Made by a program: the position numbers and the translations under genes. A stretch of 64,000 nucleotides of DNA from Halodesulfovibrio sp. (GTDB lineage Bacteria; Desulfobacterota; Desulfovibrionia; Desulfovibrionales; Desulfovibrionaceae), in assembly GCF_015482765.1 (NCBI RefSeq), contig NZ_JADMLB010000012.1, forward strand, positions 1 through 64,000. The letters run 5' to 3'. Of the stretch, positions 35,438 through 62,783 are shown in pieces (position 1 is the stretch's first letter; each line of letters begins with the position of its first letter). A model generated the notes under the pieces. The model was not told the origin of the DNA, did not search any database, and worked only from the letters and a program-made list of their open reading frames with translations.

Positions 35438-35445
35438 GTTGAATT

Positions 35446-36976: not shown

Positions 36977-36985
36977 GAGAAAGCC

Positions 36986-39048: not shown

Positions 39049-39808
39049 TGTTACTTTCTTTTGTTGGTTGATCGTTTCAATTCTTATTCCGCAATCAGGT
39101 TTTTGTATTACCGGATTAGAAGTTGCGGAACGTATGGATGCTGTTGACACAAGCAAGTGTGGTGAAATGCAATCCATTATGCTTATAAAGCGCGGCTCAC
39201 AACAGCTTGTGCGTGCTATGGATGTTAAGAAAAAGAAATTTGAAGGCGTTGAAAAGCAGGTTATCCGTTTCTCAGAGCCTCAGGAAGTTCGTGATACTTC
39301 TTATCTTACATGGTCACATCAAGATATTGATAAGGAAGATGATATGTGGGTCTACATGCCGTCAGAGTCACTCGTTCGAAGGGTGAGTGGAGGCGGTAAA
39401 AAGGGGCCTTTCATGCGGAGCGATTATGCAAACGAGGATGTTTCTAAGCGTGAGGTGGCAGACGATACACACAAGCTTTTGCGTGAAGAGCAGTTATTTG
39501 GTGTGGATTGTTATGTAGTAGAAATGACACCAGTCCATCCGCACAAAACGAATTTTAGTAAACGTATTGTATGGGTGCGTAAAGATATATGGCTTCCTGC
39601 AAAAATTGAATACATCAACCATGCAGGTAAATCATACAAAGAACTGGTGTATGGTGGTTTCAAAAAAATCCAAGGAATTTGGACAACAACTCGCCAAAAA
39701 ATGACAACACCTTCCCGAGGTACAGTAACCATTATGGAGTACCGTAAGGTAGCATATGATACCGGTTTAAGTGACTCATTGTTTTTACAGACAGACTTGA
39801 AGCGCTAG
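39032..39808 (+). CDS. LolA-like periplasmic outer membrane lipoprotein-sorting protein
   Basis: The protein has 258 residues with a signal peptide (MLLRVNVTFFCWLIVSILIP, cleaved near GFC). It continues with GLEVAERMDAVDTSKCGEMQSIMLI and DDMWVYMPSESLVRRVSG, typical of the LolA-like family often encoded with MMPL pumps. The fold is a half-barrel that carries hydrophobic ligands across the periplasm. I start at ATG 39032, which has AAGGAGAG at the right distance and begins a clean signal peptide; it overlaps the preceding gene by 17 nt. With the MMPL pump and the DUF1302 barrel it would form a lipid-style relay exporting the metallophore. Confidence 0.8.
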   Translation: MLLRVNVTFFCWLIVSILIPQSGFCITGLEVAERMDAVDTSKCGEMQSIMLIKRGSQQLVRAMDVKKKKFEGVEKQVIRFSEPQEVRDTSYLTWSHQDIDKEDDMWVYMPSESLVRRVSGGGKKGPFMRSDYANEDVSKREVADDTHKLLREEQLFGVDCYVVEMTPVHPHKTNFSKRIVWVRKDIWLPAKIEYINHAGKSYKELVYGGFKKIQGIWTTTRQKMTTPSRGTVTIMEYRKVAYDTGLSDSLFLQTDLKR

Positions 39809-39869
39809 TTTCTGCATCATTTTCTTCTACTCAATCTTATTTGCACAGTTTCCGCAAAGATCACGAATT

Positions 39870-42312: not shown

Positions 42313-42363
42313 CAAAATAGTTAGTGGCGGCCTAAAATAGGCCGCCACTAACTATTTTTTTTT
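42313..42363. terminator. bidirectional terminator ending the synthase operon
   Basis: AATAGTTAGTGGCGGCC / GGCCGCCACTAACTATT with a 7-nt AT-rich loop, with A-run and T-run flanks. On the minus strand it follows immediately after the stop codon of the second synthase gene, and it insulates the araC-type gene from read-through. Confidence 0.93.
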
Positions 42364-45300: not shown

Positions 45301-48300
45301 ATAATGACCATAGGTTGTACTCTGGGCATGGCGCTTCTGTCTTGTTCATATCTTCAAGTGCCTGCAAGGTGCGTTGTGGGAGGCAATCAAATATTTTGAT
45401 GTCCCAGGATGCAGTATTGGAGAGTTGCATCAGAATTAATTTGTAGGCAGACAACATGTCTTCAATCATGTTTTCTGGAAAAAGCTCGTCTACAGAGTCC
45501 CAATGAATGATGAGGTCGCCATTGTTTTCATGGACTTGATTATCCAGCCATACTTGCGGTGTCTGGCTAATGTTGAATCCGCGGGTTCCCAATGCTTCCA
45601 GTAATTGTCCAGATGAGTTGCCACCGGAAATGTTACTGGTAAACACAACAGGGTAGCTTTCACCGAATGGAAGTTTTCCACTTCGTGTTAATTTGCGGAT
45701 GACTTCAACACCGGATACGGATGTATGTTCCATATCTGCCCAGAAGCGATCACGAACAGCACCGGCGCGTGATGCGAAAGGCAGTGTTGGGTCATTAGTT
45801 ATTTCCAGAAGGCTTAGTGTGGTAAAATCACCGACAACATCCGAAACCTGTTCATGAAAAGGTTGCCTGTTGAAAAGAGTTACGTTGAGACAAAAAGCAT
45901 TGTTGTGGCTCCAACGTGCAATCACTTCAGCGTAACAACTTAGGAGCACAAGAGAAGGTGTTAACCCGTGAGCTTTAGCTTGCTTTTTAATGTCTTCCCA
46001 TACGTTTTTCTTGATTACGCAGGAGCGGTGCGTGAATTTAGGGGTAGCAATGGACTCCGGTGCCACAAGGGTAGGGAGTTCTGGACCATGAGGAAGGCTT
46101 TCTAACCGGTTTTCCCAATAAGATTCCGCATTGGAAAGTAAGGTTGCGCCTTCAGAGCTTGTTAAAAACTTTTTAGTATCTGCAGTGTATTGTTTAAAAG
46201 AGTACTGTAGTTCCGGAAGGTTTTTCATTGCAGATGGAATTCCGGAAATGAGTCCCTGTGCATAGATATCACGAAGCTCACGCATCATGATTTGCAAACT
46301 GCGTGCATCAGCAAGTAATAAGTCTATACTCATGCATATTCTGGTTACAGACTTAGACAGCTGAATGGTTTCAACAGTGAAGAGTGGCCAGCTTGTAGTG
46401 TCATGAACTTTGTGAGAGAGCGTGCCACGAATGCCTTCCATGGCACCTTGTTGCTCCTCTTCAATAAGGCCTGAGAGGTCATGATGTTGTATATCAAGAG
46501 AGGGAACCGTAGACAGAATTTGTTGTTGTCCCTTTTCATTGATGGTCATGCGCAACATTGGGTGGCGCTCAATGAGGGCATCCCATGCCTGAACATAAAT
46601 TTCATTATCAAGTGAAGTTACGTCATATTCAGCGTAACTGTGGCAGGAAATATTGCCCATTGGCATTGTTTCACTGCGACCTGCCCAGTATGCGTACTGG
46701 GTATCCGTCAGTGGGAATGGTTTTGTTTCTTCTTTTGTAAAAGGTGAATGGGCTACTTGTGTAGTAGATGTCTCTGGCTGAGCTTTTGTTCGGATGCATG
46801 CACAAATATTCGTAATGGTTGGGTTAGCAAAGACTTCTGCTGGAGTTATACGTACATCTAGTTCTTTTTTTATCTGCTGAGAAAATTGAAGGAAAAGCAG
46901 GGAGTCTAGACCTGCTATGAGTAGATTTTCATCATGATCAGGGCTGGTAGGTATCTGCAAAAGTCTGGTAACTGCTTCAGAAATGCTCTGCTCTAAGTTT
47001 TGTAAAGAAAGAGAGCTGGTTTTGTTTGATGAAGCAGTGTTTGAAACAGGCAGTGTTTGCACCGGTTGTTCAATGGTAAAAGCCAACGGGGTTCCGGCAG
47101 CTTCCATTGCCTGATTAAAAGTGCTCCACACAATATCTGCGGCGATAAGAACGGCTTTGTTCGAAGAGGTTTTTTTCAGCATAGAGAGTGCATTTGCAGT
47201 CCACGCATTAATTCCCAACGCTTCACGGGCGGTATGATCTTCCTCGTTCTGAGAGAGCATACCGCAATCCTTAAATGGCCCCCATGAAATACATGTTGCT
47301 GCCAGTCCGTCATAACAACGTTTCGCAGCAATTGCTTCAAGGTATCCATTGGAAGCAGTATATGCTCCAGCATGGGCTATTCCATGTAATGTTGAGATGG
47401 AAGAGAATAATACAAATTGTGCTACCGGGTGAGTCCTCGTGTACTCATCTAACAAGGCTGCACCAATCATTTTCGCTTTAGTCGCAGTTCTGTACTCTTC
47501 CCATGTCAGTTCGGCGAGAGGCTTATTGCTTGTCTGGCCAGCCAGATGGAAAACTGATCCTAATGGTGGCAACGAGCTGTTACAAAGTGCAAGCACACTC
47601 TTCATTTCGCTTGTAGAGCTACAATCTGCCTTTTGGAATACTATGGTGACACCGCTTTTTTCGAATTCAGAATATGCAGTTCTAATGCTGTCATTTGGCG
47701 CAGATCGCCCAGTAACCAGAATAGTTTTGTGTCCTTCATCAATAAGGCGGGCGATAAGGTTATGACCTAGACCGCCTGTGCCCCCCGTTACGAGTGTTGT
47801 TGTACCTTCGATTGGAATAAGGACACTTTCGTTAGTGGGTTCTTCGTCCACTAATTCTGCGACGAGCCATTCTTTGTTACGTAAAACAAAGAATCCTTTT
47901 TTAGATTCACGAGGAAGTTCTGATAGCTGGTTAAGAGTGTCTACATCAATGAGTGTCACTAAGCATTCTGGACGTTCAGCTTTTAATACGCGTGCAAGTT
48001 CCCACGCAACTCTTTGTTCTGGAATAGGACTAGAGTGTTGGTTGTGATCAATTGCTCTCTGCGTAATTACTACAAGTTCTTTAAGCCTGTTGTGAGACGC
48101 GAGAGACTTCATAACTTGAACCAGTTTTTTTTCAGGAACGTTGCCTGCGTAGAAAAGTACTTTTTCTGCTGAGCTAGAAGGAATTGCTTCTGATGTAAGG
48201 ATGTTTCCTTCTTTGAGCTGCGGCGGGAGTAAAGGTTTTGGCAGTTCTGTCAGCACTGTGTATTCAGAAATCACACTATTAAGAGTTACTGTAGGGAGAA

Positions 48301-51300
48301 CATCGTTGTTGTGAAGTTCTTCGTATTTTTTCCAACGAAGTGAAGTGAATCGGTGTGAAATGTTTTCTTTGTTTTCAACTGGCAGTTTAAGAAAAGAAAG
48401 GCCAATGAGTTCTGCAACAGATTGTTTTTCAGGTGTTACCAGTTTGATATCGCACGTTGCAGTCTGATCTGTAGAGTTTGTAAGAGTAATCTCACAACAA
48501 ACCTGTGCTTCGTGGGAACCATAGACAGTTGTAGACTTCACTCCTGTAGGAAGTAAAATGCACGGTGCCCCATTTTTTGCAGTAAAGAGGTGTGTTATTC
48601 CTCCTAGCAATTGGATGCATGGGTCTATTATTGAAGGATGAATAGCGTCTTCAGTGCCTTTAGCTATACCTGCAAGGAGTCGATCGCTAAGGACAATATT
48701 AGCCTGAACTGTATTCTCCGTTGCTTGAGCATTTTTTAATGTCCAAAGTTCGTGACCGTCTGAATCAACTCCAAGCTGTTGAAGAACTTCAGGTAATTCG
48801 TTTTTAGTAAATGTGGAACCAGTTTTTTCTTTAACGTTAAGCTGTTCTGGGAGTTGTTTTTCAATTTGTGCTGAAACGCAATGTACCCATTCATCTTTTC
48901 TTTTTTGAAGGAGTGTAATTTTTCCATTATCTTGAGGAAGCAAGTGGATTGTTTGTGACTGCTCTACATCAAGAAGTACAGGGGCATGAAGGGATAAGTT
49001 TGTGATAGTTACCTTTTGAGTATTTTCATTCTGCTTTTTCCATACTTGAGCCATTACGTCGGTTAAAATGCCCAGCGGTGCGACCAGTTCTCCATTGATG
49101 ATATGGTTTTTAAGTGCCGGGAATTGGTCAAGTCCGATTTGCGCCGTGTAGGTTGTTGTCGGGTGAGGCTGTTTAGTAATGAAGAATGGTGGAGTTCCAG
49201 TAGGTTGCATAGGTGCATTCTCAGCTACAGAAAAAACAGCTCTTGGTTCCCAGTGTGGTTCACGCTTGAAAGGATAGGTCGGAAGAGGAATGGACTGAGC
49301 CGAAGTGTCGATAAAAGCATCAATGTTTAAAGAAGCGCCTGATTTATAGAGGGTCGCAATGGCATTGTAAGTAGGAAGCAAAGAAGTATCTTCACGCTGC
49401 ATAGACGGAATCCATGCAAAAGGTTTTGGGGTAGTTTTGATAAATTTTTTTGCCATTCCGATGAGAATAGGATGAGGCCCAATTTCAAGCACAATATCGC
49501 ACTGTTCTTTCATCAGTGTCTGCATAGCATCAACAAACTGAACTGGATTACGAAGGTGTTTCATCCAGTAATCAGAAGTAGTGGTGAATGTATTTTCCTT
49601 TTGACCCGTATATGAGGAAATGTACTCTAAGGTCGGAGTAGCAAAAGATAATGAATTTGCAATATTACCAAATTCTTGAAGAATAGGGTCAAGATGACGA
49701 GAGTGAAAGGCATGGGATACACTTAACAGTTTGCAGAAAAAACCTTGTTCTTCAAAATCGGCTTTTACTTGCTTCAGATTTTCAGTTTTTCCAGACAGAA
49801 CAATATGATCCGTACCATTGAATGCAGCAATATCAAGTGAGAGTTCATGGCGCTCTTGCACCATGGTAATAACAGTATCTTGAGGAGCAAGAACTGCCAT
49901 CATGCCTCCGCCTTGAGGTAGAGAGCCGGTAAGAGCTCCACGGTGGGCGATTAATGTAGCAGCATTTTCCGGTGTCATAATACCGGCTACGCAAGCGGCA
50001 GCAAATTCACCAATGCTATGTCCGGTGACCACCTTCGGCTCAATACCAAGCGATTTCCAGTATTCGGTCAGTGCATATTGAATTGCAAAAATGGCTGGTT
50101 GGGTAATGGACGTATGGTCAAGAAGTCCAGCGTGCTTTTTGTTGAAAAGAATTTCGGTTAGTGGATGCGGCAGTTGGTTTTCAAGAGCATTTTCAATGCG
50201 TAATAGTGCTGATTGAAAAACTTTTGAAGTAGTAAAAAGTGCCTTACCCATTTCGCTATACTGACAACCTTGTCCGGTAAATATCATACCGATTTTAGGT
50301 GGGCGAGTTGAAGAGGTGGATTCTGTATTTTCTAACGCATTAGTGACATCAGTTATAGATGATCCTGCGACAGCAATGCGGTGAGGAAAGTGTTTTCTTC
50401 CTTTAAAGAGTGTCTTCATAACAGATGAAGGTGGAAGCTCTTCGTTTTTTTTCATGTAATCAATGGTTGTTGTGCGTAGCTCGTCCAACTGATCTATGTC
50501 ATGTGCTGATAGGGGGGTAAGATATGGCAACCTCACGGTTGAGTCCGAGGAGGAGTCAAGCGGGCAACGGTGCTTTTTTGATGAAGTAACATCCTCTGCA
50601 GCTTGAAGAATCATGTGGACATTTGTTCCGCCAACGCCAAAGGAGCTTACACCAGCCAATCGTTTTTCATTACGTTTCTTCCATGTTGTCGCATTGGCAA
50701 TGGGAAAGAAGGGGGTGCTGGCAAATGGAATATGTGGGTTGGGAGTGGAGTAATGGAGCGTTGCCGGAATTTCTTTGTGGTGTAATGCTAATGTAGTCTT
50801 GATTAGGCTACAAATTCCAGCTGCAGTATCCAGATGGCCTACATTACTTTTGACTGACCCAATTGCACAATAGCCGCTGGCATCTGTGTCTTCCCGGTAA
50901 GCCTTTGTAAGAGCCTGTATCTCAATAGGGTCACCGAGCAATGTTCCTGTACCGTGAGTTTCAACATAGCCAATATTATCTGCAGATTCTTCAGCAACTG
51001 ATAATGCATCGCGAATGACAGAGTACTGACCAGATACGCTCGGGGCGGTAAAGCCGGCTTTGTTTGCTCCATCATTATTCATGGCAGAGCCGCGGATGAC
51101 AGCATAAATAGGATCACCGTCTTCAACTGCATCTTCAAGAGGTTTCAGCAGTACAGCACCTACGCCGTTGCTGGCGCAGATTCCAGCTGCATCTTTATCA
51201 AAAGCGCGGCACTTAGCATCTGGTGCGCAAATCATCCCTTCTTCGTAGGTATATCCGACTCGTTGTGGAATTGAGATTGAAACACCACCTGCGAGCGCCA

Positions 51301-51892
51301 TGTCGCACTCGCCGGAAAGTAAACTTTCTACCGCGAGATGTGTTGCAGCAAGAGAGCTTGAGCAAGCTGTCTGTACTGTGAAGCTGGGGCCGGTAAGCCC
51401 CAGTTTGAATGATGTTCGGGTTGCAATGTAGTCTTTATCATTACCAAGAACGGAGGCGAAGGCGGCACTTGTTCCAATTGTATTTGGATCGGAAAGAGCA
51501 TTTTGATAAGTGCTCATCTTGGCGCTAGCAAAAACCCCAGTATGAAGTTTTGAATCTGGTGCATAGCCTGCATCTTCCAGCGCTGTCCATGCGCACTGTA
51601 AAAACAAACGTTGTTGAGGATCAATGCGTTTGGCCTCTGCCGGAGAGTAACCGAAGAGAGAAGCGTCAAACATTTCAATATCATCAATAGGATACCCGCA
51701 AGGCACGTAGTCTGGATTCTCGATTGTTTCCGGCAACACGCCGTTTTGCAACAATTCTTCTTTTGTAAAGGTTGTCAGAACGTCTTTGCCGCTCTGAAGG
51801 TTTTTCCAAAACATGTCTTTATCAGTTGCTCCGGGGAAACGGCATGCAATACCGATAATTGCAATTGCATCTGTAATATTTGTATTACTCAT
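42362..51892 (-). CDS. hybrid PKS-NRPS, KS-AT-DH-KR-ACP-Cy-A(Cys)-PCP-R
   Basis: The protein has about 3176 residues. Domains read in order are: KS (about 8-435; VQTACSSS with Cys177, His313, His353); AT (about 533-840; GHSIGEF Ser626 and malonyl-type HAFH 727-730); DH (about 910-1170; HIINGELVAP His930 and DPCIQ Asp1090); KR (about 1362-1545; GGTGGLG, Tyr1511); ACP (GLDSL, Ser1664); Cy (about 1725-2155; FPLTDTQYAYWAGR and DLLLAD); A (about 2190-2690; residues read D-L-Y-N-M-S-L-I-W, cysteine type); PCP (GGDSV, Ser2724); and terminal R (about 2826-3176; GATGFLG, YPQSK). It adds a malonyl unit, reduces and dehydrates it, adds a third cyclised cysteine and releases the chain reductively. Start ATG 51892 has AAGGAT seven bases upstream. 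HMWP1 of yersiniabactin is the nearest architectural relative. Confidence 0.93.
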   Translation of the reverse strand: MSNTNITDAIAIIGIACRFPGATDKDMFWKNLQSGKDVLTTFTKEELLQNGVLPETIENPDYVPCGYPIDDIEMFDASLFGYSPAEAKRIDPQQRLFLQCAWTALEDAGYAPDSKLHTGVFASAKMSTYQNALSDPNTIGTSAAFASVLGNDKDYIATRTSFKLGLTGPSFTVQTACSSSLAATHLAVESLLSGECDMALAGGVSISIPQRVGYTYEEGMICAPDAKCRAFDKDAAGICASNGVGAVLLKPLEDAVEDGDPIYAVIRGSAMNNDGANKAGFTAPSVSGQYSVIRDALSVAEESADNIGYVETHGTGTLLGDPIEIQALTKAYREDTDASGYCAIGSVKSNVGHLDTAAGICSLIKTTLALHHKEIPATLHYSTPNPHIPFASTPFFPIANATTWKKRNEKRLAGVSSFGVGGTNVHMILQAAEDVTSSKKHRCPLDSSSDSTVRLPYLTPLSAHDIDQLDELRTTTIDYMKKNEELPPSSVMKTLFKGRKHFPHRIAVAGSSITDVTNALENTESTSSTRPPKIGMIFTGQGCQYSEMGKALFTTSKVFQSALLRIENALENQLPHPLTEILFNKKHAGLLDHTSITQPAIFAIQYALTEYWKSLGIEPKVVTGHSIGEFAAACVAGIMTPENAATLIAHRGALTGSLPQGGGMMAVLAPQDTVITMVQERHELSLDIAAFNGTDHIVLSGKTENLKQVKADFEEQGFFCKLLSVSHAFHSRHLDPILQEFGNIANSLSFATPTLEYISSYTGQKENTFTTTSDYWMKHLRNPVQFVDAMQTLMKEQCDIVLEIGPHPILIGMAKKFIKTTPKPFAWIPSMQREDTSLLPTYNAIATLYKSGASLNIDAFIDTSAQSIPLPTYPFKREPHWEPRAVFSVAENAPMQPTGTPPFFITKQPHPTTTYTAQIGLDQFPALKNHIINGELVAPLGILTDVMAQVWKKQNENTQKVTITNLSLHAPVLLDVEQSQTIHLLPQDNGKITLLQKRKDEWVHCVSAQIEKQLPEQLNVKEKTGSTFTKNELPEVLQQLGVDSDGHELWTLKNAQATENTVQANIVLSDRLLAGIAKGTEDAIHPSIIDPCIQLLGGITHLFTAKNGAPCILLPTGVKSTTVYGSHEAQVCCEITLTNSTDQTATCDIKLVTPEKQSVAELIGLSFLKLPVENKENISHRFTSLRWKKYEELHNNDVLPTVTLNSVISEYTVLTELPKPLLPPQLKEGNILTSEAIPSSSAEKVLFYAGNVPEKKLVQVMKSLASHNRLKELVVITQRAIDHNQHSSPIPEQRVAWELARVLKAERPECLVTLIDVDTLNQLSELPRESKKGFFVLRNKEWLVAELVDEEPTNESVLIPIEGTTTLVTGGTGGLGHNLIARLIDEGHKTILVTGRSAPNDSIRTAYSEFEKSGVTIVFQKADCSSTSEMKSVLALCNSSLPPLGSVFHLAGQTSNKPLAELTWEEYRTATKAKMIGAALLDEYTRTHPVAQFVLFSSISTLHGIAHAGAYTASNGYLEAIAAKRCYDGLAATCISWGPFKDCGMLSQNEEDHTAREALGINAWTANALSMLKKTSSNKAVLIAADIVWSTFNQAMEAAGTPLAFTIEQPVQTLPVSNTASSNKTSSLSLQNLEQSISEAVTRLLQIPTSPDHDENLLIAGLDSLLFLQFSQQIKKELDVRITPAEVFANPTITNICACIRTKAQPETSTTQVAHSPFTKEETKPFPLTDTQYAYWAGRSETMPMGNISCHSYAEYDVTSLDNEIYVQAWDALIERHPMLRMTINEKGQQQILSTVPSLDIQHHDLSGLIEEEQQGAMEGIRGTLSHKVHDTTSWPLFTVETIQLSKSVTRICMSIDLLLADARSLQIMMRELRDIYAQGLISGIPSAMKNLPELQYSFKQYTADTKKFLTSSEGATLLSNAESYWENRLESLPHGPELPTLVAPESIATPKFTHRSCVIKKNVWEDIKKQAKAHGLTPSLVLLSCYAEVIARWSHNNAFCLNVTLFNRQPFHEQVSDVVGDFTTLSLLEITNDPTLPFASRAGAVRDRFWADMEHTSVSGVEVIRKLTRSGKLPFGESYPVVFTSNISGGNSSGQLLEALGTRGFNISQTPQVWLDNQVHENNGDLIIHWDSVDELFPENMIEDMLSAYKLILMQLSNTASWDIKIFDCLPQRTLQALEDMNKTEAPCPEYNLWSLFTAKYNATPDATAIICSSEEISYGELGARAAGFASRLSELGVRPNTLVGISLPKGIDQIAAVLGTQAVGAVFVPIAHEQPASRKQIIAEESNLAFIIAEESFSENVTHVAPNTTTDSPENYSGPVSNSDLAYIIFTSGSTGKPKGVSITHEAAVNTLIDINRRYAVSHNDVIFGVSRLTFDLAIYDIFGALAAGATLVLPDDSRQNDPEHWIDCLASYKCTIWNSAPALMQLAIQYAQAAKRTFSHLRLAMLSGDKIVPDMPQALQQIAPNAVPNSLGGATEASIWSICHPIKNYSPEDGPIPYGRPMMNQEWYVLDSGLGACPEHVVGDLYIGGKGLAQGYYGRDDLTQNAFLTHPETGKRIYRTGDMGAFMPEGYLTIIGRRDFQVKIRGHRVEPSEIEHVLSAHPEVNQMIVTPITTNSGTALVSYYSGTAQKHDLASYAAEQLPRYMVPAYYVAMKEFPMTPSGKVDRKQLPQPAIDARPEKQAEVSTELTPLQATITEVWNDLLQLDHTPLDMDFFNAGGDSVLAAQLVLGIRNALDVSLALPRLFENPTIELLSKYLIEKHPSLATKCSKDETIPSVESEPLQEKEASSIVDIVHVDVLKKHPVCAFRPDISGLPTVQGTFKKPFITGATGFLGIHVLKSLLENGAENVTCLVRAKGKQSGIQRILDTAQVYGFSLTPWITNIQAVNGDLSQKYYGLSESDFTALSEQVDAVFHAGALVHYIYSCESLLGPNVIGTREAIRLASTGIVKPLHHVSTVSVFSPLRCTDDLTILEDEHIEQDMNVFGGYPQSKWLAERLIQNAIEAGLPAYIYRPGLITGTSSNGTWNKEDFLWRIIQGSLQAGVIPDLQRIENFLPVDTVAEALVHIARGELAEHVYHLDGFNPVSSHQLIEKLQQCTAELKVVSYAGWREAIARPENPLYPLLPLFPEEVNPESISRQLRFDNSNAKKALQNSTICFPSLNDLLPVYLKSMVG

Positions 51893-51908
51893 AATGATAT
51901 CCTTGTGG

Positions 51909-54900
51909 TTAGCGGTGGCGTTTAACACGTTTCCGCTTACGGGATGAACGGGAAACAGGATCAGAGGTGTCATGGCTGGCTGCATCGTCTATAGTTGCTT
52001 CCTTTTCAATTGAACAAAGGCTGCAAAGAGCAGTCGCCAACTGTTCAATTGTTGGATTAGCAAAAAGCGTTACAGCATCAATGGATACATCCAGATGTTG
52101 CATCAGAGCATTCTGTAAACGGATGAGGTGGAGTGAATTTGCACCCAGTTCAAAGAAGCTCGTTTGATGGTCATGGCACGGGGAGTTTGTTAGCTCAGAG
52201 AGCTTTTCTTCAATAACAGCTGCTAGCGTAACTGCTTGAGTATTATCAGTAAGATGTGTTGTAACCTTAGTGATTATGGAAGAAGTTACGTACTTTTCAG
52301 ATAACGCAACTGAAGAGACAAACACATCATTCTTGGTGGTTTTAGGAAGTTGCTTGCGGTTGACTTTTCCGTTTGCTGTAAGAGGGAATGAGTCTACAAA
52401 CACCAAGTAGTCTGGAAGCATATATTTGGGGAGTGCATCTTCGAGCTGCATGGTTAACTGGACTCGAGTTTTTTCTGTTGTAGTATGAGCAGGAACTTCA
52501 AGGCAGTTTACTGCCATAGCTGCCTGATCTACAGGTGCTGTCTGGCAGTAGAGCACAAGGGATGTGTTCTGTTCATTTTTTGTAACAACGGCAACTGAGT
52601 GGTTTATTGCAGTTAAGCCATTAGCTACGGACTCTATTTCTCCAAGCTCGATGCGATGTCCGCGAAGCTTAATTTGAGTGTCATTACGCCCGACAAATCG
52701 TATTGTTCCATCTGGATGAAAGAATCCAAGGTCACCAGTGCGATATAAACGATTTGAGGTTCGTGGATGCATAATAAAGTGTTCAGCAGTTTTTTGGGTA
52801 TCTCCAAGATACTCCATTGCTAAGCCTTCACCCCCGATAAACAATTCTCCTATTGCCCACTCAGGTGTGGGGGTAAGAGTGCTGTCTAACACATGGAATG
52901 ACTGGTTATGCATCGGGAAGCCGTATGGGATGCTGTTCCATTCAGAGTTATGTGTTTCAATTGGGTACATGATGGACCAAATTGAACCTTCTGTGGCACC
53001 GCCCAGAGAAACGACCTTGCAATCTGTTGTAAGAGCTTTAATGCGTTCCGGAAGGGATAGAGGAATCCAATCACCACTCATCATCACAAGACGCAAGGAT
53101 GTTGGAAGATTTTTACCACGCATTTCGCAGTACTCTACAAGCAGTTCCATCATCATCGGCACTGTGTTCCATATAGAAACGCGGTGCTCTTCAAGCATTT
53201 CAAGCCAACGGACAGGGTCTTTTTCACGTTCCGGTTCAGGGAAGACTAATGTCCCTCCGGCATCGAGTATGCCGAAGATGTCAAAGACAGAAAGGTCAAA
53301 GGTAAGGTTCGCCAAGCCTAATACGGAATCGTCAGATGTGATATTGAAACGCGTTTTCAAGTCGTCGAAAGTATTGCACGGTCCTGCATGATTCATCAGA
53401 ACTCCTTTAGGAGTACCTGTTGAGCCGGAAGTAAAGATGCAATACGCCGGAGAGAGTGGAGAGCTTTCCGGAATTGACCAGTTGGTGTTGAAGTCAATGG
53501 CTTCAGCGATTGAATCAAGAGCGATTATGCCTACGTTGGTAGGTAGTTGTAGCTCTGAAAGAAGTGATGAAAGTGTTAGAACGTGTGTAATTTTCGCATT
53601 TTCAAGAATGACAGAGGTTCGTTGTGCCGGGTTTTCAGGGGAGATTGGCACGTAGTGACAACCTGCGTAAATGGAACCGATGACTGCTGCTGCTTGTTCG
53701 CAGCTGCGAGGAGCAATAACGGCAACGGCATCTCCAACATGTACGCCGGCATCTGTTAGCTGTTTGGCTATTGTGCAGGCGTAGGCATGAAGTGTTCCGT
53801 AGTCCATAGTCCCTGAAGGTGTAACTACGGCGGCTTGTTCAGGCTTAGTTAGAGCCATTTTAGTAAAGCCGGAAGTCAGTAAACGATGGTGTGTTTTTTC
53901 TGGAATTTCCAGTGCCATGCTATTGTATGCGATACGCCGTTGTTCTTGATGGCGTGGAAGGGCTACCAGATTTTCTTGTCCCCATACTTGAGGAGCGGTC
54001 AGGGCTTCAAGGGTGGATACATAGGCGGTAAACATATCTTCAATCATGTTTTCAGGGAAAAGTTCAGCGACGTAATCCCAATTAAAAACAAGATCTCCAG
54101 CATTTTCGTAAACTTGATGATCCAGCCAGACCTGAGGGGTTTGTGTTAAGCAGAAGCGCTGTGCTCCAAGTTTATCAATAACAGAAGCGTCACGTCCTAA
54201 TGCTTCTGAACCGAGAGCACTGGTAAAGACAACAGGAATAACAGCATGATCATTGCCGTTTGCGTGGGCAATTTCACGCATTACTTCAACTCCGCTGAAG
54301 TCTTTGTGATCAAGATCTTTCCAGAGTTGTTGTTGAAGTGCCTTTGCGTATTCTTTAAACGAAGAATTTGCATCGTGGACTTCAAGCAATGTTAATGAAG
54401 TAAAATCACCAACGATTTTATTTACATCTTCATGAATAGGCAGTCTGTTGAACAACGTCAGGTTGATAGAGAAGTCTGAAGATTTGCTCCAGCGGGCAAT
54501 AGTTTTTGTGTACGCTGCACAAAGAAGAGACGACGGGGTAATCCCTTCAGCTGAAGCACGTTCTTTTAGTTTTTTCCATAACGTTTCATCCAGTCGATGT
54601 TCCAGACGGCTGAACTGCGGTGTTTCAATTTCACTCGGCTGTTTTTTCAAAGGAAGCTGAGGGCCGGAAGGGATTGTAGAAACTCGCTCGCACCAGTACT
54701 GTCTGGCTTCTTTATATGTTTTACTGGAACGGAATTTCTCAACTGCGGTTACGTAGTCTCTGAAGCTGAGGCCTTGCTTTGAGAGTTTTGTGAGATCACC
54801 ATCAGTGGTGTAAAGCTTGTACCATTCGTCAAGAAGTAAGAAGAGACTCCAAATATCTACGCACAACGCATCGAAACTGATGTGGATACGAGTGGTGTCT

Positions 54901-57900
54901 GTATCTAATCGGTTCAGGCGAATATCAAAAAGAGGCCAGACATCTGTTTCGATTACCTGGTGTGAGAGTTCGTTTCGAGTTCTTGTTAATTGCTGTTCGC
55001 GAAACTTATCATCTTTGCTACGTAAGTCATTTTGAATAAAGGAATATTCAGGAACATCTTTGAGGATTTGTTGTGAACCGTCCTTTGTGACAATAGCTCG
55101 CAACATTGGGTGATGAGTAATTAATTCATTCCAATATTGATTTAATTTCGCGGTATCAGTTAGCGGACTGTCGATCTCAAGATAAATATGTGTAGAGATA
55201 TTACCTAATGCGTAAATATTACCACGCCCGATCCAATATGCCTGCTGAATTTCTGTGAGGGGGAAAGGATCATTTGCTGCTTCTGGAAGGTGGTAAGGTT
55301 TAGGTAATTCATCTGCAATATGTGGCTGCGTTGCGAGCCAAGTTGCCTGATCTTTAATCGATTCCAGTTCAAATACTTTAGCAAGAGGAAGATTCTTTCT
55401 GAACTGTGTTCTGATTGCGCTGGCAAGTTTGATCGCAAGTAACGAGTCACCACCAAGAGCAAAAAACTTTGCTGTTACAGAAGGAACTTCAATATTCAAA
55501 AGTTGTTGCCAAATGTCCTGTAAGGTTTTTTCATCAGCAGTAGAAACTTCAATAAGGTCTTCTTCTGTTTCAACGTTTTGCAGTAATGCGGTATCTGGTA
55601 CAACGAGCTTTTTACGGTCAATCTTACCACTCGGTGTTAGCGGCCAACTGTCGCAACGGATGATGGCACCCGGTTGCATATAATCTGGTAATGTCGTTTC
55701 GCAACGGTGGGTAATAATTTCTGTAATTGTTTCTACGGAACTAGAAGTTATGACAAAAAGGGCGATCATGTGGACGCCGTTTGTACGAGAGACTGCTAAT
55801 GCAATAACATCCTGTACACCTTCTATGTCACGTACAGTGGCTTCAATATCGCCAAGTTCAATGCGGTGGCCACGGATTTTAATTTGGAAATCTTCACGAC
55901 CTATAAACTCAATGTGTCCATCAGGGTGCCAACGTCCTAAGTCTCCGGTGCGGTAAAGGCGCTCTTCAGTTTCAGGGTGGGTAATAAATGAGGCGTTGGT
56001 TTTTTCAGCGTCTCCGTAATACCCGTTTGCCAAACCAATTCCGCCAATATGAAGTTCTCCAGTTACCCAGTCAGGGCACATCTCACCATGGTGTCCTAAT
56101 ACATGGAAGGTTTGGTTAGACATAGCTGTGCCGTATGGAATACTTGCCCAATCAGATGGTACTTTCTGGATAGGGTAGTGTATTGACCATATGGCTGCTT
56201 CAGTAGCGCCACCTAGGCTGTGCAATTTGGTGGATGGGAGAACTGCCCTTGAACGATCTGGTAGGGTCGTTGGGATCCAATCTCCGCTCATTACAGAAAG
56301 ACGCAGGGTGGACAATGCTGGACGAGGTGTCATTTGCTCTAAAGAAGCAACAAGCATTTGCATCTGTGCAGGGACAGAGTTCCATAATGTTACATCATGA
56401 CGATGAATGAGGGATATCCACTCGTCAGGGTTGCGTAATTGATCTTGTTCAGGAAGGACAAGCGTCCCGCCGGCTCCAAGGGCTCCGAATATGTCATAGA
56501 CGGATAAGTCGAAGTTTAATCGGGCAATGCCGAGTACTGCATCTCGAGCTGTTACAGCAAAGCGCTTATTCATGTCTTCACATGTATTTCGTGCCGCGCT
56601 ATGGCTGAGTGCTACCCCTTTTGGCGTTCCGGTGGAGCCGGATGTGAAGATAACGTAAGCCAGTTGTGATTCAGAGTAGTCGGTTTTTTTGAGCGGGGAA
56701 TCACTAAATAGTGTGTCTGCATAAACACAAGTGATGCTTTCTGGTAGCTTGATTGAGGACTGTTGCTCTTCAAGTAGAAGCGCAATACGAACTTTGCCCT
56801 GTTCCAGAATGGCATCAATTCTGCTTTGCGGCAGACTTGGATCAATTGGCAGGTATGCGGCTCCTGCCTGCATAACAGCTACTGTTGAAGTGACCTGCGC
56901 CCAATGTTTAGGTGCTATAATGCCGACAAGCTCCTCTTGCTCTACTCCTAATTGATTTAAGCGGTTAGCAATGCCTGCAATGGAGCGTCCTAGTTGGCGG
57001 TATGTAGTAACTTCGTCTTTATAAATTATCGCCTTAGCGTCAGGCTGGTTTGCAATTTGTTCTAAAATTGGGGTTTGGAGCAAGCCGTTAGGTAATGGTT
57101 CCGCTGTATCGTTTGCGGTAATGCGTTTTAGGTATTGGTCTTTGGGCAGTTCGCATGGCGTAGGAGCTGACCACATATATGAGTGTTCTGCTAATTTTTT
57201 CAGCAGGGTTGTATAGCTCTGCATCATGCTATCGAGCATGCCTTCAGGGTATCTTCCTTCAACTGTATCCCAGTTCCACTTTAGGTTTCCTGCTTCTTCC
57301 CATGCCTGATGGTCAAAATGGACTTGCGGAGTTTGGAAGATTCCAAACGGAATATTCTGTATAAAATCATCTTCAATTTCTTGAGGATAAAATCCATTTG
57401 GAGCGGTAGCAGTTATAGGCAGCATGCTTGTAAAAATAACCGGCATGGCAGATGGCAGGCTTCGAGAACGCAACTGGCGTAAAACTCTAACTCCAGAGTA
57501 ACAACGGTGTTCAAGATCTTCCCACAGAGCAGCTTGAATTGTCTGTGCACGCTGAATGAATGATTCACCGGAAGAAGTATCCATAGAATGAACAAGAGCT
57601 GAAGTGAAATCACCCGCTATGTTATGCCCGTCAGCGTGATTTGAAGGACGGTTAAACATTGTAAGTGTCACAGAAAATTCAGGAGATTTACTCCATAAGC
57701 CAAGAACTTCAGAGAACGCTGCAAGTAGAATTCCTGAAGGAGTGATGTTCAACCCTTTAGCTTTCTTTTTAATATTATTCCAAAGACGGGCAGGGAGTTT
57801 ACCACTTCTACGAGTAAAGGTACTTGTGTTTTGGGGAATGTTTCGAAGCGGAAGTTCCGGTGCTGGAGCAATTGAATCTAGTTTATTAAGCCAGTACTTT

Positions 57901-60900
57901 TCTGCATCAGCAAACTGTTTTGCAGACAACATCGCCTGTTCTGCAAGAACACAATCTCTAAAGGATAAATTTAAAGAAGGTAGTGAGTCCTTAGCTGCTT
58001 TTCCGTTGTTTTTATAAAGCGTTGCTAAATCACGAGCGAGAATAAGAAGAGTAAGACCATCACCGATGAGTAAGTCAAAGCTGATGTGCAGTCTTGTGGT
58101 ATTATTTGCCTTATGGGATGCACGTAACTCAAAAAGTGGCCATTGAGAGCTGTTATGAACTGTGTGTGACATTGTATTACGAATATCAGTAAGTTCAATT
58201 TGCTCCGTTGCTTCTGAAAGAATGTGCTCTTTTATTACATACTCTGGGACGGACGGAAGGATCTGCTGGGTGCCGTCTTCATGTATGATAGCACGAAGCA
58301 TCTCATGGCGTTTGATGAGTTCGTTTACTGCTGTATGGGCTTTGGCGGAGTCAAATCCAGAGCAGTCTATTTCTAAATAGAGATGGCAGGAAACATTACC
58401 GGAGTCAGCTTCCTCACGACCTATCCAATATGCGTGCTGAATATCAGTAAGAGGGAAAGGATTATAACGTTCAGCAGCTGTTGTGTCTGCGTTTGCTATT
58501 TGTTTTTCTTCGGCAGAAGCAGCCTTGATTGTATCTGAAGAGATCCCTTCAGATTGTTCAGATGTAATGTACGCTATAAGCTCAGCCGGTGTTGCCCCTT
58601 GCATCAGCTTGGATAAAGGTACAGTTACACCTGTTTCAACTGTGATTTTTTCAATCAACCGGAACCCCATCAAAGAATCAACTCCCTGTGCACCCAAAGG
58701 GCGATCTAGAGAAATTGCTTCTGGAGTACTCCAGAGTTCCGTCGCAACCCACTCCAACAGTGGATGAGTTGTACGGGATACAGAAGGGCCCCCCGCGTTC
58801 TCGCAGGATTGGCTTACTAAAAGCTTTCTAATGCTGCTTTCTGTATCAGTGCCATGTTGATTATCAATAGCAGGAAGAAGATAACGATTTTTTCTGAAAG
58901 GCGTTGGAGCTAATGCTACACGGCTTGTGGTTGGGTAAAGGGCATCCCAGTCCAGTGAGTATCCTGCTGATACGAGTTCATTAAGGAGAATACTTTCTGA
59001 AGTGCATAGTCCCGAGCTTTGTTGTGAGAGCCAACGCACATCAATTTGTGTGATGCATTGTTTCCCCATGTTTGTGAGTGTTGCAGAAGGACCAATCTCA
59101 ATGAGGCTTTCTGCTCCGGAATCAACCACGCTCTGAATTCCTTTTTCAAAAAGAACGGGCATACGCAAATGATCACGCCAGTATTCAGGGGTTTGAATCT
59201 GCTGGCTGTCAGCAATAGAACCTGTGAGGTTGGAGATAAGGGGAATTGCAGGGGCGTGGAATGTTACCTTGCTTGCTGCTGCATAAAATTTCTCTAAAAT
59301 TGGCTCCAGCAAAGAAGAATGGAAGGCGTGAGAAACAGCAAGACGAACTGTTCGGATTGATTTTTGTTCTGCAATTTCTTCTATATAATCCAGGTGCTCT
59401 TTTTTTCCGCTGAGAACTGTGTTGGTTGGAGTATTTCTAGCTGCAGTGTCAACAGGCATACCATGCTTTTCAGCGCTTATTAAAAGTTGTTCGGTTGCGG
59501 TTGAATCTGCAAGTACAGCGAGCATTCCACCATCATGCGGAAGGCTGTGTATAAGTTTTCCTCTAAGAACTACAAGACGTAGAGCATCTTCTAGTGAGAA
59601 CACTCCGCTTATGCAGGCAGCTACATATTCTCCAATGCTGTGTCCCATGAGCACATCTGCCTTAACTCCCCAGCTGATAAGCAGTTTAGCTAAAGCATAT
59701 TCGTACGCAAAGAGCGCAGGTTGGGTGTAACATGTTTCGTTTAGTGTCTCTTGTGGGGTAGAAAAAAGGAGTTCTGTTAACAGAGGCTCAAACAATTGTT
59801 TCGTAATCTCTTCGCAGTCATCAATAGCTTCTTTGAATGCAGGGTAATATCTGTATAGCTCCTTCCCCATACCTTCCCGCTGAGCACCTTGTCCGGAAAA
59901 GATAAATGCACTTGTTGTTGGGGGAACTGAAACAGGTGTAGTTTGTCCGAAAGATTCAGGTGTTGCGGAGGTAAGAGTTTCGAATAGTTCGTTATACGTT
60001 TGTGCTGAAACAACTGTTCTAAAGCGTTCGAACTCAACTGCGATAGCGCTTTGTTTGGCAAAAGCTGTGAATTCTGTCTTCGTATCAGAAGAAAGATAGC
60101 TTGCGATGCTGTGGCAACGTTCAGCAAGGCGTTCAGCAGAAGTCGCACCGATGGGAAGAGCAAATGGTGTTTCTGAGCTTGAGTCATCATTTGTTGTGAT
60201 TTGCTTTGAGGGGTCTACCTGCTCTTTCTCGAGAAGAATATGTACGTTAGTACCGCCGATACTGAAACCGCTGACTCCTGCACGTAGAGGATGTTTCGTA
60301 TCAGAAACGAGCTGTGTCCATGGAGTGTTTATTTTGGGGATGGAAAAGTTGTCAGCAAAAGACGTAACTCGGTGATTTAAAGATTGGAAACCATAATGCG
60401 CTGGAATAATTTTATTGTTCATTGCAAGGATGGTTTTAATGACGCTTGCTATTCCTGCTGCTGCTTCAGCGTGGCCAATGCATGGCTTTGTTGAACTCAC
60501 CATAATTGGATTTGTACGGGAGGATGCGTTGTAGATATTCGTTATGGCGGTAAGTTCTATAGGATCGCCAAGAGCAGTGCCGGTTCCATGTGCTTCAACG
60601 TATTGTACACTTTCTTGTGAAATTTGAGCGGCATCAAGAGCCAGTTGGAGCAGGTGTGCTTGAGCTTCGGCATCAGGAGCAGTAATGCCGTTACTTTGCC
60701 CATCCTGATTCATTGCAGAGCCGATGATTGTTGCAAGGATGGTATCGCCGTCAGCAATTGCCTGTTTATGGCTTTTTAAAATCAGAACTCCGCATCCTTC
60801 TGAACGGATATAGCCGTCTGCTCGATCATCAAATGTTTTGCAGCATGCGTCATCTGCCATCAGATTAGCTTGAGAGCATGCGATATGCATTTCTGGTGAA

Positions 60901-61802
60901 AGAATTAGGTTAACACCACCTGCAATTGCTGTTGTGCATTCTCCAGCACGGATTGCTTGTGTTGCGGTATGGATAGCAGCCAAAGAGGCAGAGGAGGCTG
61001 TATCTACGACCATGGAAGGGCCATGTAGATTTAAGTGGTAGGAAATTCTCTGAGCGGCAAGACTTGTAAATGTACCTGTGACAGCGTGCATGGAGAGAGC
61101 GTCTTGGCATGCGAAAACTCTTTTAGCATAGTCGCTGCCACTAATGCCCATAAATACACCGGTAGAGCTTCCGGATAAGCTGCGTGGAGAAATCCCTGTT
61201 TGTTCAATTGCGTGCCAAGTTGTTTCAAGAAGCAGGCGATGTTGTGGATCAATCATTAAAGCTTCTCTTGGAGAAATTCCAAAAAAGTCGGCATCAAAAG
61301 ATTCAATATCTTCTATAAAACCGCCTTGTTTTACGTAGCTTTTTCCTCCTTGCTTTTCTTCATTATAATATGAATCTGTTGCCCATCTGTTTTTTGGGAC
61401 GTCAGTTAACCCATGTTCACCACTAGTGAGTAGCTCCCAGAATAGTTGAAGAGAAGTACATCCCTTTGGAAGATTGCAGGACATACCTACGATGGCGATA
61501 CGTTCCTGCTGGCGGGCAGGGGCAGGGGCAGGCGATGCCGTTTTCGTGGTGTTTTCAAGAGTAGCGGCAGCCTTGGACATGGCAGAAATTGATGGATGTG
61601 AGAAGGCGAGCGGTGAAGACACAGACAGGGAGAACTGTTTTTCCAGTTTGTTAGAAAGTTGGAAAATATCTACCGAACTCATTCCTTGATCAGAAAGAGG
61701 AGTTTCTGGGCAAACAAGCGTGCCGAGAGCTTCTTGCACTTCTGCAAGAAGCCAGTGGTAGATAGTCTTTTGAAGAGAAGAAGTAGGAAAGGATAATGAC
61801 AT
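51909..61802 (-). CDS. hybrid PKS-NRPS loading and bis-heterocycle synthase, ACP-KS(Ser)-AT-ACP-Cy-A(Cys)-PCP-Cy-A(Cys)-PCP
   Basis: The protein has about 3297 residues. Domains in order are: an N-terminal carrier (about 1-85; GMSSV, Ser43); KS (about 100-525) in which the active-site Cys is Ser270 (VDTASSAS) while His405 and His444 are kept; AT (about 632-940; GHSIGEY Ser722, malonyl-type HAFH); ACP (GVDSL, Ser1043); Cy1 (about 1113-1540; DLLIGD); A1 (code D-L-Y-N-V-S-L-I-W); PCP (GGDSL, Ser2120); Cy2 (from about 2178; DALCVD); A2 (code D-L-F-N-M-S-L-I-W); and PCP (GANSL, about Ser3223). A basic tail ends RSSRKRKRVKRHR. Expected chemistry: acetyl starter by malonyl decarboxylation, then two cysteines condensed and cyclised to thiazolines. 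Start ATG 61802 has AGGTGG upstream. The gene lies 16 nt before the next synthase gene. Confidence 0.93.
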   Translation of the reverse strand: MSLSFPTSSLQKTIYHWLLAEVQEALGTLVCPETPLSDQGMSSVDIFQLSNKLEKQFSLSVSSPLAFSHPSISAMSKAAATLENTTKTASPAPAPARQQERIAIVGMSCNLPKGCTSLQLFWELLTSGEHGLTDVPKNRWATDSYYNEEKQGGKSYVKQGGFIEDIESFDADFFGISPREALMIDPQHRLLLETTWHAIEQTGISPRSLSGSSTGVFMGISGSDYAKRVFACQDALSMHAVTGTFTSLAAQRISYHLNLHGPSMVVDTASSASLAAIHTATQAIRAGECTTAIAGGVNLILSPEMHIACSQANLMADDACCKTFDDRADGYIRSEGCGVLILKSHKQAIADGDTILATIIGSAMNQDGQSNGITAPDAEAQAHLLQLALDAAQISQESVQYVEAHGTGTALGDPIELTAITNIYNASSRTNPIMVSSTKPCIGHAEAAAGIASVIKTILAMNNKIIPAHYGFQSLNHRVTSFADNFSIPKINTPWTQLVSDTKHPLRAGVSGFSIGGTNVHILLEKEQVDPSKQITTNDDSSSETPFALPIGATSAERLAERCHSIASYLSSDTKTEFTAFAKQSAIAVEFERFRTVVSAQTYNELFETLTSATPESFGQTTPVSVPPTTSAFIFSGQGAQREGMGKELYRYYPAFKEAIDDCEEITKQLFEPLLTELLFSTPQETLNETCYTQPALFAYEYALAKLLISWGVKADVLMGHSIGEYVAACISGVFSLEDALRLVVLRGKLIHSLPHDGGMLAVLADSTATEQLLISAEKHGMPVDTAARNTPTNTVLSGKKEHLDYIEEIAEQKSIRTVRLAVSHAFHSSLLEPILEKFYAAASKVTFHAPAIPLISNLTGSIADSQQIQTPEYWRDHLRMPVLFEKGIQSVVDSGAESLIEIGPSATLTNMGKQCITQIDVRWLSQQSSGLCTSESILLNELVSAGYSLDWDALYPTTSRVALAPTPFRKNRYLLPAIDNQHGTDTESSIRKLLVSQSCENAGGPSVSRTTHPLLEWVATELWSTPEAISLDRPLGAQGVDSLMGFRLIEKITVETGVTVPLSKLMQGATPAELIAYITSEQSEGISSDTIKAASAEEKQIANADTTAAERYNPFPLTDIQHAYWIGREEADSGNVSCHLYLEIDCSGFDSAKAHTAVNELIKRHEMLRAIIHEDGTQQILPSVPEYVIKEHILSEATEQIELTDIRNTMSHTVHNSSQWPLFELRASHKANNTTRLHISFDLLIGDGLTLLILARDLATLYKNNGKAAKDSLPSLNLSFRDCVLAEQAMLSAKQFADAEKYWLNKLDSIAPAPELPLRNIPQNTSTFTRRSGKLPARLWNNIKKKAKGLNITPSGILLAAFSEVLGLWSKSPEFSVTLTMFNRPSNHADGHNIAGDFTSALVHSMDTSSGESFIQRAQTIQAALWEDLEHRCYSGVRVLRQLRSRSLPSAMPVIFTSMLPITATAPNGFYPQEIEDDFIQNIPFGIFQTPQVHFDHQAWEEAGNLKWNWDTVEGRYPEGMLDSMMQSYTTLLKKLAEHSYMWSAPTPCELPKDQYLKRITANDTAEPLPNGLLQTPILEQIANQPDAKAIIYKDEVTTYRQLGRSIAGIANRLNQLGVEQEELVGIIAPKHWAQVTSTVAVMQAGAAYLPIDPSLPQSRIDAILEQGKVRIALLLEEQQSSIKLPESITCVYADTLFSDSPLKKTDYSESQLAYVIFTSGSTGTPKGVALSHSAARNTCEDMNKRFAVTARDAVLGIARLNFDLSVYDIFGALGAGGTLVLPEQDQLRNPDEWISLIHRHDVTLWNSVPAQMQMLVASLEQMTPRPALSTLRLSVMSGDWIPTTLPDRSRAVLPSTKLHSLGGATEAAIWSIHYPIQKVPSDWASIPYGTAMSNQTFHVLGHHGEMCPDWVTGELHIGGIGLANGYYGDAEKTNASFITHPETEERLYRTGDLGRWHPDGHIEFIGREDFQIKIRGHRIELGDIEATVRDIEGVQDVIALAVSRTNGVHMIALFVITSSSVETITEIITHRCETTLPDYMQPGAIIRCDSWPLTPSGKIDRKKLVVPDTALLQNVETEEDLIEVSTADEKTLQDIWQQLLNIEVPSVTAKFFALGGDSLLAIKLASAIRTQFRKNLPLAKVFELESIKDQATWLATQPHIADELPKPYHLPEAANDPFPLTEIQQAYWIGRGNIYALGNISTHIYLEIDSPLTDTAKLNQYWNELITHHPMLRAIVTKDGSQQILKDVPEYSFIQNDLRSKDDKFREQQLTRTRNELSHQVIETDVWPLFDIRLNRLDTDTTRIHISFDALCVDIWSLFLLLDEWYKLYTTDGDLTKLSKQGLSFRDYVTAVEKFRSSKTYKEARQYWCERVSTIPSGPQLPLKKQPSEIETPQFSRLEHRLDETLWKKLKERASAEGITPSSLLCAAYTKTIARWSKSSDFSINLTLFNRLPIHEDVNKIVGDFTSLTLLEVHDANSSFKEYAKALQQQLWKDLDHKDFSGVEVMREIAHANGNDHAVIPVVFTSALGSEALGRDASVIDKLGAQRFCLTQTPQVWLDHQVYENAGDLVFNWDYVAELFPENMIEDMFTAYVSTLEALTAPQVWGQENLVALPRHQEQRRIAYNSMALEIPEKTHHRLLTSGFTKMALTKPEQAAVVTPSGTMDYGTLHAYACTIAKQLTDAGVHVGDAVAVIAPRSCEQAAAVIGSIYAGCHYVPISPENPAQRTSVILENAKITHVLTLSSLLSELQLPTNVGIIALDSIAEAIDFNTNWSIPESSPLSPAYCIFTSGSTGTPKGVLMNHAGPCNTFDDLKTRFNITSDDSVLGLANLTFDLSVFDIFGILDAGGTLVFPEPEREKDPVRWLEMLEEHRVSIWNTVPMMMELLVEYCEMRGKNLPTSLRLVMMSGDWIPLSLPERIKALTTDCKVVSLGGATEGSIWSIMYPIETHNSEWNSIPYGFPMHNQSFHVLDSTLTPTPEWAIGELFIGGEGLAMEYLGDTQKTAEHFIMHPRTSNRLYRTGDLGFFHPDGTIRFVGRNDTQIKLRGHRIELGEIESVANGLTAINHSVAVVTKNEQNTSLVLYCQTAPVDQAAMAVNCLEVPAHTTTEKTRVQLTMQLEDALPKYMLPDYLVFVDSFPLTANGKVNRKQLPKTTKNDVFVSSVALSEKYVTSSIITKVTTHLTDNTQAVTLAAVIEEKLSELTNSPCHDHQTSFFELGANSLHLIRLQNALMQHLDVSIDAVTLFANPTIEQLATALCSLCSIEKEATIDDAASHDTSDPVSRSSRKRKRVKRHR

Positions 61803-61846: not shown

Positions 61847-62752
61847 TTAAGGATTGGTTGTAAAGCTGACGGTAGCTCCGGAAAAGACCTTGCTGCATTG
61901 TTTTGCAAACTTTGTAAGAGATGCATTTTTATCTACATCCTGTGCGATGTAGACATTTGCGACCCAATGACCATTGGTGGGTATTCTGAACTGTGCTTTA
62001 CCATTCATTATGTACGAAGATAGGAAGAAACCGTCTGGCCCCCCGAATGTATCACTCGTTAATGTCATGTAGTTGATGGCGTTGCTGTCTGTCGTGACAG
62101 GTTTACCCATGAAGAAGACATCGAATGTAATGATGTCGCCAGGGTGAACCGTTGAAAGATCACAGGTCGGAATAATTTCAAGCTCAGTTCCAAGTTTTTT
62201 GGGAGAGCTCCATTTCCCGACTGTATAGAAGGATTTGCCAATCATGGTGAATTTGACGCTTTCGAGAACTTCTTTAACGTCTTTCAATTGATCGATTGGC
62301 TTAGGTGCCATGCGCATTTTACCTTTTTTATTGAGGTAGCGCGTGAAGAATCCTTCTTTATTTTTAGCAACAACTTGATAGGTGCCTTCAGGGCTTTGTT
62401 CTAAAATTTCGATTTTGCGTACACCTAGGTCGCCGTTGGCTATGTGTGTGTAAGGATCAGTTTTTTCGATTGAAGATTCAGTTGTAGGAACGCCTAGCGG
62501 GATTTTTTTCCCATCAGGTGCCATTACATAATAGTCTTCAATAGAAGCTGAGCCATTGGGCGATGTGAGTAGGTCATCTAAGGGGGGAGTATGCCCCCAA
62601 CCTATTGAAGAAATAACATGGCCAGGCTCGTGGGTGTGTGATTCAAAAAGTGATACCCATAAGGAGTGCGCTTGAGCCGGAGCGCTGACAGTCAGAAAAA
62701 GGGCAGCGGCAACAAGACTGCTAATAAGTAATTTTTTCGGTTGCGTGATCAA
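61847..62752 (-). CDS. DUF4198-family periplasmic protein (NikK-like group)
   Basis: The protein has about 301 residues with a signal peptide (LLISSLVAAALFLTVSAPAQA) and mature start AHSLWVSLFESHTHEPGH. Exported DUF4198 proteins typically keep a His near the new N-terminus, which binds metal in the Ni/Co uptake component NikK. Later segments HPGDIITFDVFFMGKP and DTFGGPDGFFLSSYIMNG match the leaderless paralogue at 32209-33054. I propose TTG 62752 as start because GGAG lies six bases upstream; a TTG at 62764 is the in-frame alternative. It is the second gene of the synthase operon, 44 nt before the first synthase. A periplasmic metal- or metallophore-binding role is inferred. Confidence 0.82.
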   Translation of the reverse strand: MITQPKKLLISSLVAAALFLTVSAPAQAHSLWVSLFESHTHEPGHVISSIGWGHTPPLDDLLTSPNGSASIEDYYVMAPDGKKIPLGVPTTESSIEKTDPYTHIANGDLGVRKIEILEQSPEGTYQVVAKNKEGFFTRYLNKKGKMRMAPKPIDQLKDVKEVLESVKFTMIGKSFYTVGKWSSPKKLGTELEIIPTCDLSTVHPGDIITFDVFFMGKPVTTDSNAINYMTLTSDTFGGPDGFFLSSYIMNGKAQFRIPTNGHWVANVYIAQDVDKNASLTKFAKQCSKVFSGATVSFTTNP

Positions 62753-62783
62753 AAGAGTCTCCAAGTAAAGTTACTGTCTGTGA

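Follow-up and report, generated by a model that had tools for sequence, protein, structure and literature searches.

The first megasynthase of a gene cluster in Halodesulfovibrio begins with the domains ACP-KS(S)-AT-ACP, in which a ketosynthase-like domain carries serine in place of the nucleophilic cysteine. We regard it as probable that this block is a starter module and that its KS-like domain decarboxylates malonyl-ACP to acetyl-ACP. Judging from phylogeny, the serine is separate in origin from that of the polyene KS(S) loaders. The features on which these statements rest are collected in Table 1; the window is the whole 64,000-nucleotide stretch of DNA that was analyzed.

Serine at the ketosynthase nucleophile site

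In the first megasynthase, the minus-strand codon 60995-60993 reads TCC (Ser) at the KS nucleophile position, within VVDTASSASLAA. The residue is Ser302 in the longest reading frame, which opens at ATG 61898, and Ser270 when counted from ATG 61802. The latter is the likelier start, being preceded by an AGGTGG ribosome site; upstream of it, the extension meets stops within the matching stretch of the homologue from the same genus (G006). The domain combines a KS fold (PF00109/PF02801) and a replaced nucleophile with the retention of both catalytic histidines, Lys471, and both threonines of HGTGT (H437, T439, T441, and H476 in the long frame), as is typical of KS(S)/KSQ-type loading domains. An earlier note on this DNA had proposed the Cys-to-Ser change, the retention of His 405 and 444, and a malonyl-type AT with HAFH. 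Codon reads and Pfam matches bore out the substitution, the histidine numbers are exact from ATG 61802 (His437 and His476 in the long frame), and the AT has GHSIG and Arg in addition. The note had, however, described a KS-AT-ACP tri-domain; the actual order is ACP-KS-AT-ACP, and the overlooked N-terminal ACP provides another possible entry point for the starter.

Table 1. Features of the cluster, with window coordinates
Feature	Position	Strand	Basis
First megasynthase, ACP-KS(S)-AT-ACP-Cy-A-PCP-Cy-A-PCP, 3297 aa from ATG 61802	51909..61802	-	Pfam
N-terminal ACP, motif DQGMSSVD	61545..61763	-	Pfam PP-binding (4 stretches in protein 1)
Ketosynthase-like domain KS(S)	60231..61508	-	PF00109 4e-85, PF02801 3e-39 (Pfam)
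KS nucleophile-position Ser codon TCC	60993..60995	-	Codon read; S302, or S270 from ATG 61802
HGTGT: His437, Thr439, Thr441 (long frame)	60576..60590	-	Codons checked
Lys471 (long frame) of KS(S)	60486-60488	-	Codon checked
Second catalytic His476 (long frame)	60471..60473	-	Codon checked
Acyltransferase, malonyl-type motifs GHSIG, Arg, HAFH	59019..59921	-	Pfam and motifs
Second ACP, putative donor to first heterocyclization domain	58554..58760	-	Pfam, motif, identity comparison
Cy-A-PCP-Cy-A-PCP, adenylation pockets cysteine-type by motif	52014..58466	-	Pfam and motifs
Second megasynthase, KS(Cys)-AT-DH-KR-ACP-Cy-A-PCP-reductase	42362..51985	-	Pfam, TIGR01746
AraC-type regulator	41255..42256	-	Pfam
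Accessory genes block	30091..41258	+	Pfam, NCBIfam
DUF4198-like secreted protein directly upstream of megasynthase	61847..62764	-	Resemblance to 32197-33054 gene by reading

Organization of the assembly line

The KS(S) holds the starter position together with an AT and an ACP, as loading domains do, and is preceded by a single ACP. The AT looks malonyl-specific, keeping the carboxylate-binding Arg and HAFH as malonyl ATs do. Beyond the second ACP the line is of the yersiniabactin type: the Cy domains have their DxxxxD motifs (DLLIGDGLT, DALCVDIWS, and DLLLADARS), and from the pocket motifs FDLSVYD/LWNS/SLGGATEAAIW we take all three A domains to be cysteine-type. In the second megasynthase, the KS motif is VQTACSSS, with a Cys nucleophile, and TIGR01746 matched at 291.7 bits against a cut-off of 213.35. 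The condensing KS of that protein (50606-51874) is 92% identical to its G006 counterpart, far above the remainder of the protein, as if it had been recently exchanged or were strongly constrained.

The accessory genes encode a TonB receptor, a DUF4198 protein, an MMPL/RND transporter, a type II thioesterase, a PPTase, a cysteine synthase-like PALP enzyme, and a saccharopine-dehydrogenase-like reductase, along with LolA-like and porin-like proteins named from sequence only. Such a context is consistent with a cysteine-derived metallophore, and the product is probably a yersiniabactin-like, metal-binding molecule. Two DUF4198-like secreted proteins, the first encoded immediately before the megasynthase gene and the second at 32197-33054, border the cluster and are possible periplasmic metal-handling partners. 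Also adjoining it are a feoA-like gene (window 63500-63733) and a feoB-like gene (L201 3849-6338, around the window end), both named by reading and hinting at an iron link.

Conservation among relatives

A search for relatives across the class (348 genomes) found this cluster in G006 and in a second genus (G267), with Ser at the KS site in both. Identity of the KS(S) is 77% to G006 and 59% to G267, while the protein as a whole stands at 69.7% and 53%. Because the serine is conserved in these two relatives, sequencing error is ruled out as its source; because the KS(S) stands above the protein average, it is under constraint rather than decaying. Of all domains, the N-terminal ACP has diverged most (58.9% and 32.9%), as expected if that ACP is uncoupled, and its attachment Ser is kept in the homologues read. 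The second ACP is better kept (75.4% and 42.0%). The DUF4198-like protein upstream, at 81.6% in G006 and 58.8% in G267, adjoins the megasynthase there too, and both genomes retain the accessory genes as far as the compared stretches reach.

A syntenic cluster in G097 has an identical domain order in protein 1 and a second protein without DH (by reading), but its starter KS has Cys (IDTACSSS). Three genomes (G073, G255, and G263) carry a different yersiniabactin-type cluster with Ser, encoded by AGY, at the KS nucleophile position; here, gene order was compared in all three and domains were scanned in G073. Its line runs ACP-KS(S)-AT-ACP-Cy-A(MT)-PCP-Cy-PCP plus docking-Cy-A-MT-PCP-TE and is accompanied by a thiazolinyl imide reductase (TIGR01761, 327 versus 189 bits). 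Since the order downstream of the starter block is that of HMWP2, the block occupies the place of the aryl carrier. In G121 and G140, a FAAL-like ligase-ACP-KS(Cys) stands at the start of the line. The FAAL-ACP-KS(Cys) and ACP-KS(Cys)-AT-ACP relatives look like earlier states of the window arrangement.

Some further observations concern these relatives. The first proteins of G121 and G140 (L074 and L064) contain a nitroreductase-type domain inside the NRPS part, which is possibly thiazole-forming. Within one genus, G255 and G263 have the HMWP2-like Ser-KS cluster and G267 has the window-type cluster, a distribution that suggests either horizontal transfer or loss in some lineages. Finally, in TKPCIGH (window 60480-60482), Cys replaces the usual KS Asn (KSNIGH) shortly before the second catalytic His; all three window-type Ser-KSs have this Cys, whereas the other Ser-KSs and G097 have Asn.

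Origin of the serine

At the nucleophile position, 218 of 227 surveyed KSs from many phyla had Cys, 8 had Ser, and 1 had Ala; the Ser KSs comprised those of the window, G006, and G267, three of the second cluster type, and two polyene loaders. Scans of genomic DNA for the Ser-codon patterns (348 genomes for TCN, 247 for AGY) recovered only six genomes, namely the source genome, G006, G267, G073, G255, and G263, plus three matches (G011, G026, and G298) that were judged from their sequences to be chance. The scan of named genomes is an outgroup sample only, close relatives not being among the matches listed.

Phylogenetic analysis covered 49 KSs other than KSQ sequences, with active-site columns left out. 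The polyene KS(S) were represented by an NysA-like protein of S. noursei and a selvamicin-type plasmid protein, identified by size, organism, and motif. The window, G006, and G267 formed one group (100/100), and G073, G255, and G263 another (100/100), with both groups and G097 joined at 87/91. The polyene pair was nested in Streptomyces KSs (100/100), and a tree constrained to shared descent of the window group with this pair was 100.9 log units lower and rejected (p-AU 6.2e-6). The parallel with NysA and AmphA that the earlier note had drawn thus stands for the position of the serine and fails for descent: in the phylogenetic check that it had recommended, the window KS does not group with the polyene KS(S).

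The two Ser groups outside the polyenes, which we take to be Desulfovibrio-type bacteria on the basis of gene content and the literature, may share one substitution or have acquired it separately. In the free tree, the Cys KS of G097 joins the G073 group (92/72), yet holding the two Ser groups together is not worse (p-AU 0.65). The Ser codons are TCN in the window group and AGY in the other; as either can be reached from Cys TGY by a single base change, two events are favored, though not proven. A broader account is that Cys-to-Ser starter KSs evolved repeatedly, once in polyene PKSs and, independently, once or twice in NRPS/PKS lines of the Desulfovibrio type. On every occasion a ligase-primed ACP-KS module would have become able to generate acetyl by itself, yielding yersiniabactin-like metallophores that are primed with acetyl and lack an aryl group. 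We hold this account about as readily as its negation.

Starter supply and proposed function

In profile searches, no salicylate synthase or DHB-AMP ligase exceeded the curated cut-off in the source genome, and no salicylate synthase did so in the other Ser-KS genomes. Sub-cut-off salicylate-synthase matches were present in 14 of 14 control genomes and are taken to reflect other enzymes that act on chorismate. The FAAL marker was absent from the source genome and the other Ser-KS genomes, and no ligase gene was seen in the cluster; AMP ligases of other kinds are present in the source genome. The aryl-acid supply of a yersiniabactin-type line was therefore not found in this genome, and the module stands first in the line, in agreement with the earlier note's proposal of a start without an aryl acid.

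We infer the following route. The AT would load malonyl onto the second ACP, and the KS(S), having no thiol nucleophile for accepting a chain, would skip condensation and decarboxylate malonyl-ACP to acetyl-ACP via its His pair and HGTGT threonines. The first Cy would then couple acetyl with cysteine to give 2-methylthiazoline. Further along, a second thiazoline would form, a malonyl unit would be added, reduced, and dehydrated, and a third cysteine would be incorporated before reductive release. For the linear product, the calculated [M+H]+ is 326.045 as the aldehyde C13H15N3OS3 and 328.061 as the alcohol, values that tailoring could change. The N-terminal ACP may survive from an earlier starter module in which a ligase preceded ACP-KS. 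Malonyl is held in the KSQ mechanism by two Thr, at the thioester oxygen, and by two His, at the carboxylate (PMC12267109); all four residues are present in the window KS(S). In natamycin-type CAL-ACP-KS(S)-AT-ACP, condensation was lost by Cys-to-Ser and the upstream parts became uncoupled (PMC12843615). Taken together, the kept residues, the conserved KS, the missing aryl or FAAL supply, and the parallel with the polyene path support formation of acetyl-ACP by decarboxylation.

Evidence also exists against decarboxylation. The equivalent of NysA S413, which was aligned by spacing with the Ser of FGISGTN, is Gly548 in the window (60255-60257). In the model systems of Witkowski in 1999, Ser was reportedly a poorer decarboxylase residue than Gln. 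Furthermore, mutagenesis of NysA, as summarized in PMC4540446, pointed to S413 and not to the serine that replaces the nucleophilic Cys, which leaves decarboxylation by a Ser-type KS in question for NysA itself. RimA, too, is without an S413 equivalent.

The main rival is direct loading by the AT of acetyl-CoA, or of some other short acyl-CoA, with the KS(S) as a structural platform; the starter would again be acetyl, with no need for decarboxylation. It holds that place because some KS(S)-adjacent ATs use acyl-CoA, as reported for the eurocidin and rimocidin loading ATs beside a Ser-type KS (PMC12843615). Nevertheless, the AT here resembles malonyl ATs in its Arg and HAFH, and the active-site residues and overall sequence of the KS are well preserved; we consider direct loading unlikely. 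An argument can also be made for a trans ligase that loads the starter on the N-terminal ACP, from which the KS(S) would pass it to the second ACP or condense it through Ser. The ACP-KS order matches the FAAL-ACP-KS(Cys) relatives, the attachment Ser is retained, and the genome encodes other AMP ligases. This route appears rather more doubtful given that neither a FAAL marker nor a cluster ligase was found, that no domain changes faster than the N-terminal ACP, and that KSs as a rule condense through a Cys nucleophile.

Alternatively, malonyl could be kept as the starter without decarboxylation. The malonyl-type AT and the absent nucleophile would fit, and the carboxylate could serve as a metal ligand, supplying an oxygen in place of the phenol. 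Yet the decarboxylating residues are all retained, and we know of no precedent for malonyl as a Cy donor, which makes this scenario improbable. The loss of the catalytic Cys could even mark the KS(S) as a dead remnant without a role, but the KS is among the better-kept domains and the same replacement is seen in the second cluster type, and we give this reading very little credence.

Implications

If the acetyl-starter reading is correct, loading-module rewiring of the polyene type occurred independently in other bacteria, within an NRPS line. Apparent intermediates would be extant, from FAAL-ACP-KS(Cys) through ACP-KS(Cys)-AT-ACP to ACP-KS(Ser)-AT-ACP, and the order of steps, with condensation lost first and upstream parts later, could be tested outside Streptomyces. 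It would also predict a phenol-free thiazoline metallophore in a group for which very little is known of metallophores (5 of 847 Desulfobacterota genomes; PMC12971057).

Comparison with known systems

NysA and AmphA (KS(S)-AT-ACP) share with the window the Ser at the nucleophile site and, in the NysA-like protein, the His pair and Lys. Their KS is not preceded by an ACP and branches within Streptomyces KSs, and S413 is Gly in the window. With common descent rejected, they are analogues, and the resemblance is convergence. KSQ loaders such as GfsA likewise have a replaced nucleophile, kept decarboxylation residues, and a malonyl-type AT, but the replacing residue is Gln, not Ser; by sequence, the window KS is closer to another solved structure than to the GfsA KSQ. 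HMWP2/HMWP1, the layout used for comparison with the line as a whole, has Cy domains, cysteine-type A domains, and a PKS module between thiazolines, as the window does, and the yersiniabactin cluster also contains an AraC regulator, a TonB receptor, and a type II thioesterase. In the window, the starter block replaces salicyl-ArCP, protein 1 has two A domains, release is by a reductase rather than a TE, and there are no methyltransferase domains and no salicylate synthase.

RimA and PimS0 (CoA ligase-ACP-KS(S)-AT-ACP) come close to the window in their ACP-KS(S)-AT-ACP order and KS Cys-to-Ser change, and an aliphatic starter has been proposed for them (PMC4540446, PMC12843615). The window has no ligase domain and feeds an NRPS Cy domain instead of a PKS module; this likeness is one of layout, separate descent having been found for other polyene KS(S), the NysA-like and selvamicin plasmid proteins. 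Within Desulfovibrionia, the bil cluster of uncultured Bilophila, which makes bilothiazoles, shares with the window Cys-derived thiazoles and a PKS module (PMC11934131). It takes 2,3-DHB or salicylate as its starter via a stand-alone ligase (PMC11934131), unlike the window line.
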